NCBI GenBank assembly: GCA_030627235.1
Contig: DAOUSL010000022.1
Location: forward strand, 1-32,923
Origin: Thioploca sp.
Lineage (GTDB): Bacteria > Pseudomonadota > Gammaproteobacteria > Beggiatoales > Beggiatoaceae
Reading direction: 5' to 3'
Length of the DNA stretch: 32,923 nt
Position 1 is the first letter of the stretch. Each line of letters opens with the position of its first letter. Under the pieces are notes generated by a model, which saw only the letters and a program-made list of their open reading frames with translations, was not told the origin of the DNA and searched no databases. Below are positions 1,453-30,614 of the stretch, piece by piece. The translations under genes were made by a program, and so were the position numbers.

Positions 1453-4110
1453 ATGAAACAAATAATATTTTGTTTGTTATTAATTACCTTAAGCTCATGT
1501 TATGACACATATGAAGATTCTAAACAGAAAAGAGCTGAATTAGCCGATAAAACTGAAGATATTTTAATAGGAGTCGCCTGGCCGAAAGAAGATGATAATT
1601 TCATGAAGGGTGTTAGGCTCGCTATTAAAGAAGTTAATAGAAAAGGGGTAATTAACCGAAATCGTATTAAAATAATAGTTGATACTGAAGAGCAAGAAGC
1701 ATATGGCTTGCTAGTAAGAGAAGCTCAAAAAATATCCATTAAGGTAGCTAATTCATTTGCTTCTAATCCAGAAATTGTATCTGTCATAGGACATCGTAAA
1801 TCTATTTTTGCCATCCCTGCCTCAGTGGTTTATCAAAATCACGGCATGTTGTTTATTGCTCCCACTAGTACTAATCTAAATTTAACTATTCATAACTTTA
1901 GCTATATTTTTAGACTATTACCATCTAATGAAGAAATGGCTAAAGCATTAGCAAACTATTGTAATGAAGCTGATTATAAAAGATTAGTTGTACTACATGA
2001 CCGTAGTCCTTATGCGACTGAACTTGCTGATTCTTTTGTATTTAATGCTGTGGAAAAGCATAATTCTGATATTATAGTACGTCGTTCATTTTTTTCAAAT
2101 AAAAAAGATTTTACTGATTTAATAGTTGAGATAAAAAAAATTAGGCAAAAACATGAGTTTGACGCTATTTTTATATCTACTAATAGTAGTATTGCGACTA
2201 AATTATATGAGCAAAGTCGTGATATGAATATTTTAGTACCATTTATTGGGAGTGAATCCTTAGATACAGATATGTTTTGGAATACAGTTAGAGAATGGGA
2301 AATTGATAGTACTGAAAAAAAATCAGTTGCATTAACTGTATTTGATGATAAAACTGCTAATCCTGTAGTAAGAAAATTTATTCGAGAATATAAAAAGAAA
2401 TATAAAATTCCACCAGACCGTTTATCTGCATTGGGTTATGACATTATTAAGTTATTAACTCATGGTATAAAAAGAGCTAGATCAAAAGTTCCAATGAAAA
2501 TAGCAGAAGCACTAAGATATATGCCTTTTTGTGAAGGAATTACTGGTAAACATGAATTTAAACATAATGGAGATATCAAAAGTAAACAATTACATGTGAA
2601 ATTTGTACAACCAAATAATCAATTTGGGTATAAACTTATCAATGATTATAAAGATAAAATGCAAACATCAGTTAAACTACCTTATATAGAAGAATGTGGC
2701 AATATCGACTTTGATAATGATGATATACCTAATGAATTAGATGCCTGCCCAAACAATACTGAATTAGAAGTTTCACAAGGAGTATATCAAGACGGTAAAG
2801 AAAGAGGTTGCCCAGCTGATAATGATAATGATGGTTATTTAGATTATCTAGATAATTGTATGGGTACAGAACCTCATGAATTTAAAAATGGTATTGATAA
2901 ATATGGTTGCCCAACAGATACAGATAAAGACAGAGTACCTGATTATAAAGATAAATGTCCAGATAATTTATTAATTAGTTCCTGGGTGGATAAAAATGGT
3001 TGTGCCCCAGATGAAGATAAAGATGGTGTGCCAGATGATAAGGATGAATGTCTTAATAATTCTAAGAAAGAAATAGCTAATGGAGTTTTTACTACTGGCA
3101 CAAATTTTGGTTGCCCAATTGATAGTGATAATGATGAATTACCAGACTATCTTGATGAATGTGCTAATGATACTCCTTTAGAAATTAGCCAAGGTATTGA
3201 TGCACTCGGCTGTTCTTTAGATTCTGATAATGATAAAATTTTTGATTATGAAGATATATGTCCGAATAGTAGTGAAAAGGAAATAATTAATGGTATTTAT
3301 CATGAAGGCAAAATGAAAGGGTGTCCAATTGATACTGATAATGATAAAATATTAGATTATCTAGATATTTGTCCTAACAATAGCAAGAAAGAATTGAAAC
3401 GTGGAGTTGATATTCATGGTTGTCCAATTGATACTGATAATGATAAAATCTTTGATTATCAAGATAAATGTCCAAATAATGATATAAATGAATTGGCTAA
3501 AGGTGTTTATCAAAAGGGTAGAAAAAAAGGTTGTCCAATTGATACTGATAATGATAAAGTATTAGATTATCTAGATATTTGTCCAAATAATAGTGTAAAT
3601 GAACTAGCTAAAGGTGTTTATCAAAAGGGTAAAAAGAAAGGGTGTTCAATTGATACCGATAAAGATGGTGTACCTGATTATCAAGATAAATGTCCAAATA
3701 CCAGAATCGATGTTGTAGCTGATAAACGTGGTTGTGTTATTATTGAAACCGAGAATATCATAAAAAATGGTGATGATAGTTTCCCTTATAATGCTGCAAA
3801 TTTAACAGAACAAGGACAGTCAGAACTTGATATTATTATCAAAACTATAGATGACAAGTTCTTGAAAAAAATCAAAGTGATAGCTCATACTGATAATATT
3901 GGTTCACCATATTTTAATCATTTATTATCTTTGGAACGAGCAGATAATGTTGCTAAATATATGATTGATGGTGGTATTGTTCGTAAGAAGATACTTACAG
4001 TAGGAAAAGGTAAAACTCAACCATTAGCATCCAATGATACTAAGGAAGGTCGTTATCAGAATCGTAGATTTGAATTAGTCATTAATAGATTTAAAAAGAA
4101 AAATCCATAA
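1453..4110 (+). CDS. Lipoprotein: LivJ-type ligand-binding domain, TSP3 repeats, OmpA domain
   Basis: This 885-residue protein has three modules. A lipoprotein signal peptide ends in the lipobox LSSC with the lipidated Cys at 16. Residues about 36-395 form a type 1 periplasmic binding (LivJ/ANF-receptor) fold, with GVAWPKEDDNFMKG at the start and VIGHRKS and FIAPTSTN further on. Residues about 417-763 hold ten calcium-binding thrombospondin type-3-like repeats of the form DxDxDxxxDxxDxC, spaced 31-37 residues apart. Residues about 770-885 are an OmpA C-terminal peptidoglycan-binding domain (HTDNIGS, LSLERADNVAKYM, QNRRFELV). The protein is therefore probably lipid-anchored, peptidoglycan-bound and held rigid by calcium. 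No ABC permease or ATPase is nearby, so the binding domain looks like a sensor or ligand trap rather than a transport subunit. The ligand is unknown. The gene lies five bases behind the SPFH gene. Confidence 0.88.
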   Translation: MKQIIFCLLLITLSSCYDTYEDSKQKRAELADKTEDILIGVAWPKEDDNFMKGVRLAIKEVNRKGVINRNRIKIIVDTEEQEAYGLLVREAQKISIKVANSFASNPEIVSVIGHRKSIFAIPASVVYQNHGMLFIAPTSTNLNLTIHNFSYIFRLLPSNEEMAKALANYCNEADYKRLVVLHDRSPYATELADSFVFNAVEKHNSDIIVRRSFFSNKKDFTDLIVEIKKIRQKHEFDAIFISTNSSIATKLYEQSRDMNILVPFIGSESLDTDMFWNTVREWEIDSTEKKSVALTVFDDKTANPVVRKFIREYKKKYKIPPDRLSALGYDIIKLLTHGIKRARSKVPMKIAEALRYMPFCEGITGKHEFKHNGDIKSKQLHVKFVQPNNQFGYKLINDYKDKMQTSVKLPYIEECGNIDFDNDDIPNELDACPNNTELEVSQGVYQDGKERGCPADNDNDGYLDYLDNCMGTEPHEFKNGIDKYGCPTDTDKDRVPDYKDKCPDNLLISSWVDKNGCAPDEDKDGVPDDKDECLNNSKKEIANGVFTTGTNFGCPIDSDNDELPDYLDECANDTPLEISQGIDALGCSLDSDNDKIFDYEDICPNSSEKEIINGIYHEGKMKGCPIDTDNDKILDYLDICPNNSKKELKRGVDIHGCPIDTDNDKIFDYQDKCPNNDINELAKGVYQKGRKKGCPIDTDNDKVLDYLDICPNNSVNELAKGVYQKGKKKGCSIDTDKDGVPDYQDKCPNTRIDVVADKRGCVIIETENIIKNGDDSFPYNAANLTEQGQSELDIIIKTIDDKFLKKIKVIAHTDNIGSPYFNHLLSLERADNVAKYMIDGGIVRKKILTVGKGKTQPLASNDTKEGRYQNRRFELVINRFKKKNP
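2700..3735 (+). repeat. Tandem TSP3-coding repeats, the later units nearly identical in DNA
   Basis: This part of the lipoprotein gene encodes ten D/N-rich repeats starting near residues 419, 456, 488, 520, 557, 590, 627, 660, 697 and 734. The last five units share long identical DNA words such as ATTGATACTGATAATGATAA, seen three times between about 3338 and 3560. Units near 3490-3660 also share the segment encoding ELAKGVYQKG. The pattern points to recent duplication of a roughly 37-codon unit, while the first units have diverged. Confidence 0.8.
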
Positions 4111-27242: not shown

Positions 27243-30200
27243 CTAATCACAATCGTTATCTAATCCAAAATAATCTCCAACTCCATCTAACATTTCTCTA
27301 TAAATTACATCTTTTTCGGAAGGAGTTGAGTTCAATTTGGATTGGGTTTTTAGCTTACGTTGAGTTAACACTTTACTAATTAATTTAGCTACTTCTGGTT
27401 GTTCACTAATTAACGGAACAATATCATCTTTGATTATTTCTAATAATATTGTCTCAGTCATGGTAAGAATGGTAGCAGTTCTTTTTTGGCCAGTGAATAA
27501 TGCCATCTCACCAAAGAAATTTCCAGCTCCTAAACGAGCAACATCAATAATTTTATCGTCTTCTAATTTTACTTGTACTACCACAACTCCTTCTACAATT
27601 ACAAATAAAGAGTTGCCAACATCACCTTGTTTAACTACAGTTTCTCCTTCGGAAAATCGATGTTGTCGCATTCGTTCACTAAGATAAGTTTTAATCTCTT
27701 CTGAAAATGGTAAAAATATATCCATCTCATGCAATAATGCCATTGGTTTACTAGCTTCATCTAAACTTCTAGATTTGATACCTTGAAAAGTTTGTACTTC
27801 TTGACGAACTACTGGTGGCACAATTCCAGCTCGATTTAAATGAATCCAAACCCGTTTAAATACAGCTTGGTTACAGGATACTTTCTTACCATAATCATTC
27901 ACATAAAAGAGTATAGTATATTCTGCTGCCCAATCAACAAATTTTTTAAAACGACAGGTAGGATGAGGTTCTTTTAACACATCATCAGTTGATAAAGTTG
28001 CATCCAATAATATTTTTTCTACTCGTTCTGGAGGATGAGCATAGTCGATTCTAATGTTAACTGAAGACTGGCAAAGTTCTTCTGTATAATTATAATTATG
28101 AATCACCGCTTCTGAAGCAACGCTATTGGGAACACTTAATACATAGCCTGCATCAGTTAATAATCTAGTAGTTCTCCAAGTAATATCAACCACTTTACCT
28201 TCATGAAAGACTTTGCCTAATTGAATTTTTATTCCATCATTAACTCTAAACGGTCGTTCTACGTTGATAACTATTCCAGAAAAAATGTTAGAAATATTAA
28301 TCTGAATTGCCAAACCAATAATCATAGCAATCACTCCAGAAGTTGCTAATAAGCTGGTAAGTGCCTGATCATAAACAAAAGCTACGATTCCAAAAAATGC
28401 TAACATGTAAACTATGAAAGCAATAAATACTCTGACTACGGTTGGAACTGGTTGACTCGTGCTATTTTCTAAAGGTCCCCAAACAAAATGTTTGATAATT
28501 AAATTGGTTAAAAATGCTGGAGTTAGCCACCATAATACATCAAATATTAAGATTATATAACGTAAATGACCATTTGTTCCAAATGCTAATAATTCTAATA
28601 AAATTATTTCACTAACTAATAATAATATAAGTGTACATGCAACTTGTAACAACCATATATATTTGAATAATTTGATAAATTTCTTTTCAGCTTGCAGTAA
28701 TATTAATAAGACAATAAAACTTATTGCGGCTAATTCAATTGAGGTATAAAAAGGTAAACGTCCTCGTAAGGTAAATTGACTATTTTTTATAGTTAAAGAA
28801 ATATTAAATTTAGAAAATTCAATCTGTTGGTCTGGCATATTTAAGTATTTTAAACTGCCAAGAGAGCTTTTATGAATATTATTTTGAAAAAATCGAATGT
28901 TTTTAATTTTCCATTCTGATGCCATTTCTAAAATCTGAGACTGTTGAATTTTATCTAATAAAGATTGATTGGTTATTCCCATGCCTAACACATCGGTAAC
29001 ATAAATTAAATTGTTACTAGTCAAATCTTTATGATGAAAACTCATTCCTAATTCATATTGTTGATAAGCATAATAATCAGTAAAAAACTGGCTTTTAAAT
29101 TTACCTTGTACATGATATAAATGATTAGTTTGATCTCCTAGTTTTTCAATAATTGGCTTTCCTAACTGAATGGAATCAACAGCATTTATAAATTCAATAT
29201 TTTGAGTCTTTAAATTGCCTTGAAATCGGAACCATAAATGAAAATCCATGGTATAAGTTAAATTATTAGTGTCAAGTTCACTTATTTCATTTAACTCAAT
29301 CCCAACATATACTACCTTGGTTTTATACATATATTTATTGCCAATCAAAGCAATTCGTTCTTTAGCAATTTCAGTCTCTAAATCAGGTAATTGATTGACA
29401 TATGGTACGTCTTGCAACTGAGTTGAAGCGGAAATAATATTGCCATTTCTAAATACTCCGATAGAAACAGGTTTCATTGAGTCGCCATTTTTATCAAAAT
29501 AATTAAACCCAGTAAGCCCTCTAAAACCTTTATTAATATCGTTCATACTAGCTAGATAATCCCGAATTTTTTGTCTATCTTCTCCTAGATTTTGACCAGT
29601 AATATTAGTTGCTTCAATCGCTCTTAATAAAGTTAAAGTAGAATCAGTAGCATAAGCTCCAGCCCAACCAGGCTCTTCTTGATAAGTAGTTTGGTATTGT
29701 TCTCGAAATTGTTGAGCTTTCTTATTGGCAGTATCAAAAATTAATGGAGTTGCCACATAGATATTATTGGTATAATAACCAGGACTAGTTTTTTCTATAG
29801 GAAATTGATTAAAACCATGGATAAAAGTTTTTTCTGAAAAGCTAGTTTCACTGATAATTCGATTAGTTATCCCAGCTTCTTTCATTAATTTTACTAATTT
29901 AATTCCCTCTACAGCTTGGACAGCAAGAAAGATTACTCCTGCATCTGATTTATTTTTTAAACAATTAATTATTTTAGCAAGAGCTTTATCTAAATTAGCA
30001 TCTGCACTATCAAATTTCCATCTATAATTAACTTTACCATCCATTTGAATCGTTGTTTCTGCAAATACATCAGCTAGATAAGCACCATAAGCTGCTTCCT
30101 CTTGAATAATTGTTACACTATCTTGTTTAAATACTTTTTTGACATAATTAGCGAGGAATTGACCAGATGATTTTGCATTAAAAATAGTTCTAAAATACCA

Positions 30201-30614
30201 ATCATTATTTAGAGTTACATTGACATTAGTAGAACCTGGACTAATAGCTGGGATTTTATATTGTTTGTAAATTTCTCCTCCACTGATAGAAGCAGAACTA
30301 TACCAATGACCAATTACTGCAATCGCTTTATTTTGTTCAATAATAGCTAGTGCTTGTTGTTTAGCTTGAGTTTTATCATTTTTATCATCGAAGCTATTTA
30401 ACAAAATTTGTCTGCCATTTACTCCTCCTTTGGCATTGACTTTATCCAATTGTAATTGAATTGCTTGAGTCATCAATTTACCAGCAGCGGCTCCATTGCC
30501 AGACATAGGCCCAATAAATGCTATGTATATAGGTTCTTGTTTTAAATAATAATTTACTCCTACCAGACTTAATGTAATTATGATTATAATAGAGATACTA
30601 ATTAGATATTTCAT
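27243..30614 (-). CDS. Composite channel: binding-protein domain, pLGIC-like domain, MscS pore, cNMP domain
   Basis: This 1123-residue protein has four modules. After a signal or anchor helix (4-20), residues 29-400 are a LivJ-type binding domain (IAFIGPMSGNGAAAGK, AVIGHWYSSAS, ISPGSTNVNVT). Residues 430-612 resemble the extracellular domain of pentameric ligand-gated channels: VYVGIELNEISELD, a charged strand DFHLWFRFQG, GKFKSQF, then YYAYQQYEL where the Pro-loop motif YPFDxQ would stand. RGRLPFY at 617-623 matches the pre-M1 junction. Helices follow from 622, and 753-783 (LLATSGVIAMIIGLAIQINI, SNIFSGIVI) is the MscS pore helix, with the MscS beta domain next (ERPFRVNDGIKI). Residues about 965-1080 are a cyclic-nucleotide-binding domain (FGEMALFTGQKRTATI). 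MscS proteins with such a domain are the bCNG class. Ligands are unknown. Confidence 0.85.
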   Translation of the reverse strand: MKYLISISIIIIITLSLVGVNYYLKQEPIYIAFIGPMSGNGAAAGKLMTQAIQLQLDKVNAKGGVNGRQILLNSFDDKNDKTQAKQQALAIIEQNKAIAVIGHWYSSASISGGEIYKQYKIPAISPGSTNVNVTLNNDWYFRTIFNAKSSGQFLANYVKKVFKQDSVTIIQEEAAYGAYLADVFAETTIQMDGKVNYRWKFDSADANLDKALAKIINCLKNKSDAGVIFLAVQAVEGIKLVKLMKEAGITNRIISETSFSEKTFIHGFNQFPIEKTSPGYYTNNIYVATPLIFDTANKKAQQFREQYQTTYQEEPGWAGAYATDSTLTLLRAIEATNITGQNLGEDRQKIRDYLASMNDINKGFRGLTGFNYFDKNGDSMKPVSIGVFRNGNIISASTQLQDVPYVNQLPDLETEIAKERIALIGNKYMYKTKVVYVGIELNEISELDTNNLTYTMDFHLWFRFQGNLKTQNIEFINAVDSIQLGKPIIEKLGDQTNHLYHVQGKFKSQFFTDYYAYQQYELGMSFHHKDLTSNNLIYVTDVLGMGITNQSLLDKIQQSQILEMASEWKIKNIRFFQNNIHKSSLGSLKYLNMPDQQIEFSKFNISLTIKNSQFTLRGRLPFYTSIELAAISFIVLLILLQAEKKFIKLFKYIWLLQVACTLILLLVSEIILLELLAFGTNGHLRYIILIFDVLWWLTPAFLTNLIIKHFVWGPLENSTSQPVPTVVRVFIAFIVYMLAFFGIVAFVYDQALTSLLATSGVIAMIIGLAIQINISNIFSGIVINVERPFRVNDGIKIQLGKVFHEGKVVDITWRTTRLLTDAGYVLSVPNSVASEAVIHNYNYTEELCQSSVNIRIDYAHPPERVEKILLDATLSTDDVLKEPHPTCRFKKFVDWAAEYTILFYVNDYGKKVSCNQAVFKRVWIHLNRAGIVPPVVRQEVQTFQGIKSRSLDEASKPMALLHEMDIFLPFSEEIKTYLSERMRQHRFSEGETVVKQGDVGNSLFVIVEGVVVVQVKLEDDKIIDVARLGAGNFFGEMALFTGQKRTATILTMTETILLEIIKDDIVPLISEQPEVAKLISKVLTQRKLKTQSKLNSTPSEKDVIYREMLDGVGDYFGLDNDCD

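Follow-up and report, generated by a model that had tools for sequence, protein, structure and literature searches.

A Thioploca channel gene that couples a PBP-I and Cys-loop receptor-type periplasmic half to an MscS-type pore and a cyclic-nucleotide-binding domain

To what kind of channel does a protein belong whose periplasmic half points to one channel superfamily and whose pore points to another? This question is raised by a single gene in Thioploca sp. (contig DAOUSL010000022.1), found within a 32,923-nucleotide stretch of DNA hereafter called the window (Table 1). The frame opens with ATG, has no internal stops, and encodes a protein of 1123 aa. In its full-length, single-chain AlphaFold model (pLDDT 85.5, pTM 0.62), an N-terminal membrane helix is followed by a PBP-I domain, a ligand-binding domain (LBD), five membrane helices, a vestibule, and a cyclic-nucleotide-binding (cNMP) domain. 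Pfam matches to the PBP-I, both MscS, and cNMP domains all exceeded the curated cut-offs. Combined with sequence matches in the PDB and the predicted fold of the LBD, these matches verified the original prediction, which had placed four modules in this order in one chain: a LivJ-type binding domain (29-400), a beta-rich domain resembling that of pLGICs (Cys-loop receptors; 430-612), an MscS pore helix and beta domain (from about 753), and a C-terminal cNMP domain. The architecture of the window protein, namely PBP-I, pLGIC-type LBD, MscS core, and cNMP domain, is certain.

Table 1. Features of the window protein and its gene (positions are those of the window)
Feature	Residues	Position	Strand	Basis
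Whole gene: PBP-I + pLGIC LBD + 5 TM + MscS core + cNMP	1123 aa	27243..30614	-	
N-terminal membrane helix (anchor or signal)	2-23	30546..30611	-	hydropathy; helix 2-23 in model
LivJ-type PBP-I domain	28-400	29415..30533	-	Pfam Peripla_BP_6; PDB 4gnr
pLGIC (Cys-loop receptor) type ligand-binding domain	421-611	28782..29354	-	Foldseek/VIA, BLAST, hhalign
Lost Pro-loop position, YAYQQY ([FY]PxDxQ in true pLGICs)	515-520	29055..29072	-	
Membrane helices	622-645, 647-677, 682-719, 725-747	28374..28751	-	model; hydropathy
MscS pore helix (TM3 equivalent)	752-786	28257..28361	-	Pfam, PDB MscS, model
MscS beta + C-terminal vestibule domains	787-935	27810..28256	-	Pfam MS_channel_2nd/3rd
Cyclic-nucleotide-binding domain with FGEMALFTGQKRTAT phosphate-binding motif	951-1093	27336..27764	-	Pfam cNMP

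The N-terminal module was assigned to the LivJ type by Peripla_BP_6 (residues 28-385, E 6e-40) and by PDB 4gnr (E 2e-22). Ser106, at the amino-acid carboxylate site of LivJ-type PBP-I domains, was conserved in 86 of 93 chimeras, as we call proteins in which this periplasmic half is carried on an MscS pore. Conservation of the acidic LivJ residue Glu226 was not found at its assigned column (Glu in 14 of 93 chimeras), and specificity for alpha-amino acids is therefore not claimed. Genes adjoining the chimeras, checked for a clue to the ligand, offered nothing consistent.

Segment 400-620 had no Pfam match, Neur_chan_LBD included. The LBD structure was predicted with AlphaFold from an alignment of 83 chimera sequences only, true pLGICs being left out, and the resulting model (pLDDT 84.9, pTM 0.77) matched GABA-A subunits, ELIC, sTeLIC, and a nicotinic receptor at Z 14.9-15.4, with exclusively Cys-loop receptors among the matches listed. 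The best 50 Foldseek matches of the model were all pLGICs or acetylcholine-binding proteins (AChBP; E about 1e-9). Closer relatives are encoded in the source genome itself, where P0008-P0010 combine PBP-I, an LBD, and a 4-TM pore; jointly these proteins gave weak matches to Neur_chan_LBD and Neur_chan_memb that fell short of the curated Pfam cut-off; joining neighbouring pieces brought one of the proteins up to it. BLAST aligned the window protein with two of these three over 658 aa (35% identity) and 639 aa (32%), the alignments stopping at the first membrane helix, beyond which the pores differ. A chimera-only LBD profile found no pLGIC in the PDB by sequence, returning a single weak and unrelated match (E 0.095), and hhalign of the chimera LBD against four canonical pLGICs alone was not significant; with two further pLGICs, relatives of the PBP-I type, in the comparison, the probability was 96.9. 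At the sequence level, the link between this LBD and pLGICs thus depends on PBP-I pLGIC intermediates. Judged by its predicted fold and these homologs, the middle domain is a pLGIC extracellular domain.

The pore is of another kind. E. coli MscS matched residues 719-945 in a PDB sequence search, and Pfam identified MS_channel_2nd (774-842, E 4e-14; the MscS beta domain) and MS_channel_3rd (852-931, E 2e-10; the MscS C-terminal domain), while Neur_chan_memb had no match in the window protein even at E 1 and our own 4-TM model matched none of the chimeras. The original prediction would have been refuted had profile searches of the middle segments yielded no pLGIC-like or MscS match; both kinds of match were obtained, the pLGIC one through the predicted fold. 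In the structural model, the fifth and last membrane helix after the periplasmic part is the MscS pore helix, and this odd number of helices puts the vestibule and cNMP domain on the cytoplasmic side, the arrangement known from MscS. The likeness to E. coli MscS extends across the whole core (pore helix, beta domain, and vestibule), but the window protein has two further membrane helices and periplasmic receptor domains that span about 600 residues.

With its MscS core intact, the protein could still be a mechanosensitive safety valve, its pore opened by tension and its periplasmic and cNMP domains only shifting the threshold. E. coli MscS gates by tension, as does Ss-bCNGa, a member of the bCNGs, to go by a title cited in PMC4560390. 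We nevertheless consider a safety valve unlikely, since some MscS subfamilies are without mechanosensitivity (PMC4560390) and the genome's three ordinary MscS/MscK-type genes and seven chimeras exceed what osmotic relief needs.

Nearly all of the chimeras have also lost the feature by which a Cys-loop head addresses its own pore. Retention of the PxD of the Pro-loop separated the two groups sharply: it was present in 30 of 30 LBDs on a 4-TM pore versus 1 of 93 LBDs on MscS. In pLGICs the Pro-loop meets the M2-M3 linker of the pore and so links the LBD to it; a pore swap removes that M2-M3 loop, and the motif would then be expected to disappear as well. The chimeras thereby isolate a part of the sensor that serves only the old pore. 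As the tests for a pLGIC pore and a Pro-loop both failed, the window protein was not filed as a pLGIC. By the criterion of the pore it is a member of the MscS superfamily, with a pLGIC-derived periplasmic half. The one chimera that retains the PxD (YPIDKH; L081, from a Desulfonema limicola bin) may preserve the ancestral form.

Loss of the coupling motif in 92 of 93 chimeras, along with variation at the carboxylate-site Thr of LivJ (T in 53 and V in 22 of 93), would also fit periplasmic domains that no longer gate by ligand and act as a scaffold for oligomerisation or surface contact, leaving an MscS channel controlled by cNMP from inside. This seems improbable given the conserved PBP-I site Ser, the retention of both periplasmic domains across several phyla, and the absence of a cNMP domain from about half of the chimeras, and Pro-loop loss would accompany the change of pore in any case.

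The cNMP domain of the window protein (cNMP_binding, 985-1070, E 4e-20) contains the phosphate-binding motif (FGE...R; E1036, R1045), which was conserved in 42 of 53 such domains. In the source genome, 20 class III nucleotide cyclase domains score above the cut-off, and together these observations make a cytoplasmic cNMP signal plausible. The domain is nonetheless optional, being present in two of the seven chimeras of the source genome (the window protein and P0005) and in 54 of 98 overall. Chimeras bearing it did not form one clade in the MscS tree, and parsimony required eight changes of presence; on this phylogeny, the domain was apparently gained or lost more than once. At 14 loci (L011:5445-12134, L059, L061, L062, L064, L065, L067, L069-L074, and L078), a chimera without the domain lies directly upstream of one that bears it, on the same strand, with open frames 26-1350 bp apart. 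These tandem pairs suggest mixed-subunit channels, although heteromers are inferred. In Desulfoluna spongiiphila (L087), a chimera without a cNMP domain is preceded by a gene with a dCache sensor and followed by one for a sodium:sulfate-type symporter with an N-terminal cNMP domain (L087:7648-9555).

Given the unusual architecture, its occurrence in other genomes is of direct relevance. The source genome (G000, 4.6 Mb) is a draft of 471 contigs, and its fragmentation is the one point in favour of two genes having been joined by an assembly error or by recent accidental fusion. That explanation is already refuted: the same genome carries six paralogs with the same order, making seven chimera loci beside at least four pLGIC-type genes, and same-order homologs occur in several phyla, some of them in isolates and in one complete genome. 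When each species was represented by a single genome, the scan yielded 75 chimera loci, 25-90% identical, in Thioploca, Halobeggiatoa, Parabeggiatoa, Thiomargarita, Azospirillum, Paracraurococcus, and Magnetococcales, in the Desulfobacterota Desulfamplus, Desulfonema, and Desulfoluna, and in bins assigned to Leptospirales, Phycisphaerae, and Cloacimonetes. Assignments of bins may be wrong, but the complete genome of Desulfonema magnum and the isolates of Desulfoluna and Azospirillum do not come from binning. Same-order homologs in Thiotrichales, which the original prediction had proposed to seek, thus exist, and its caveat that the frame might join two genes through misassembly does not apply. 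After removal of duplicates, profile annotation distinguished 98 distinct chimeras from 33 LBD + 4-TM proteins, and no protein in either set carried both pores. Three chimera genes look damaged or divided by a change of frame (L118:4425-7389 in Parabeggiatoa; L044 and L123 in Thiomargarita) and may be pseudogenes or sequencing errors.

Phylogenies of the two halves were consistent with one origin. The tree of the periplasmic half split chimeras from pLGICs with 0 of 123 sequences misplaced (support 0.98). That of the MscS half recovered the chimeras as monophyletic (support 0.90), adjoining bCNG-like proteins, 490 and 533 aa long, that combine MscS with a cNMP domain. With outgroups only modestly sampled and the rooting untested, a single fusion that joined a PBP-I pLGIC to a bCNG-like MscS channel fits both trees and is well supported. 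The chimera is a natural pore swap between two unrelated channel superfamilies, and shows that a Cys-loop-type sensor can persist on a foreign pore over long evolutionary times.

Both putative parents have been described. PBP-I-fused bacterial pLGICs (ART-LGICs) were reported by Tasneem et al. 2005, according to whom the bacterial forms keep the LBD and 4-TM core (PMC549065). They share with the chimeras a homologous PBP-I and Cys-loop-type LBD in the same order (32-35% identity within the source genome) and differ in that they retain both the Pro-loop and the 4-TM pore of pLGICs. The bCNGs, described as an MscS pore with a C-terminal cNMP domain (Caldwell et al. 2010, as cited in PMC4560390), share the succession of MscS core and cNMP domain, and the nearest relatives found for the MscS half are bCNG-like, but bCNGs are without PBP-I and pLGIC domains. 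MscS subfamilies with added ligand-binding domains have also been described (PMC4560390). DeCLIC likewise has a pLGIC LBD with an additional N-terminal periplasmic domain; however, the N-terminal lobes of DeCLIC reportedly resemble domains other than a LivJ-type PBP-I, and its pore is that of a pLGIC (PMC12664993). The original prediction likened the protein to ionotropic glutamate receptors, and the shared PBP-I fold, which forms the amino-terminal domain of those ligand-gated channels (PMC549065), stands. The parallel in overall build is looser than proposed, as glutamate receptors are tetramers with an unrelated pore, a PBP-II ligand domain, and no pLGIC LBD, and the closest relatives are instead the PBP-I-fused bacterial pLGICs, which this same genome also encodes. 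No published description of a fusion between a pLGIC head and an MscS pore was found in the open-access literature, to which the search was limited; a passing mention in the survey of 15 MscS subfamilies by Malcolm and Maurer is not excluded.

We therefore favour, at a probability of roughly 70%, the reading that the gene product is one subunit of a ligand-gated channel built from the periplasmic half of a PBP-I pLGIC and the MscS half of a bCNG-like protein, its function being inferred. Subunits would form a ring, probably a heptamer, around an MscS-type pore, and the PBP-I domain, the LBD, or both would bind a small solute that is likely to be an amino acid or a related compound. The solute-bound LBD would move against the extra membrane helices and shift the opening of the pore, while cAMP or cGMP at the C-terminal domain would set the gain from inside; variants without a cNMP domain would probably co-assemble with the cNMP-bearing ones encoded alongside. 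Ligand gating, ligand identity, and subunit number are all inferred. That one protein integrates periplasmic ligand and cyclic nucleotide signals, as originally proposed, is likewise an inference that has not been shown and for which there are no functional data.

How most MscS relatives gate, the bCNGs among them, is poorly understood. Heads of pLGICs are pentamers and MscS pores are heptamers, so one of the two rings must change. Only tentatively can the proposal be extended to a separate ligand-gated class, in which heptameric Cys-loop heads on an MscS pore read solute, tension, and cNMP, and paired subunits form heteromers. The chimeras make testable both a pentamer-type sensor ring on a heptamer pore and true ligand gating of MscS pores, and the homologs in Azospirillum and Desulfoluna isolates allow bench work. 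The many copies in giant sulfur bacteria and their relatives suggest a chemosensory system based on ion channels.

Further PBP-I fusions were encountered. A third kind couples PBP-I, a pLGIC LBD, and a 4-TM pore to a C-terminal SBP_bac_1 domain, placing binding proteins at both ends; it was found at L127:2630-6142 (contig C429 of the source genome) and L130:1981-5544 (Pfam E 2.5e-31 and 3e-37, respectively), in frames of about 1170-1210 aa, and L140, L141, and L142 are similar in length. The window itself holds another unusual fusion, at 1453-4107 on the forward strand next to a Band_7 gene, which encodes an 885-aa protein with PBP-I, thrombospondin type 3 repeats, and a C-terminal OmpA domain.
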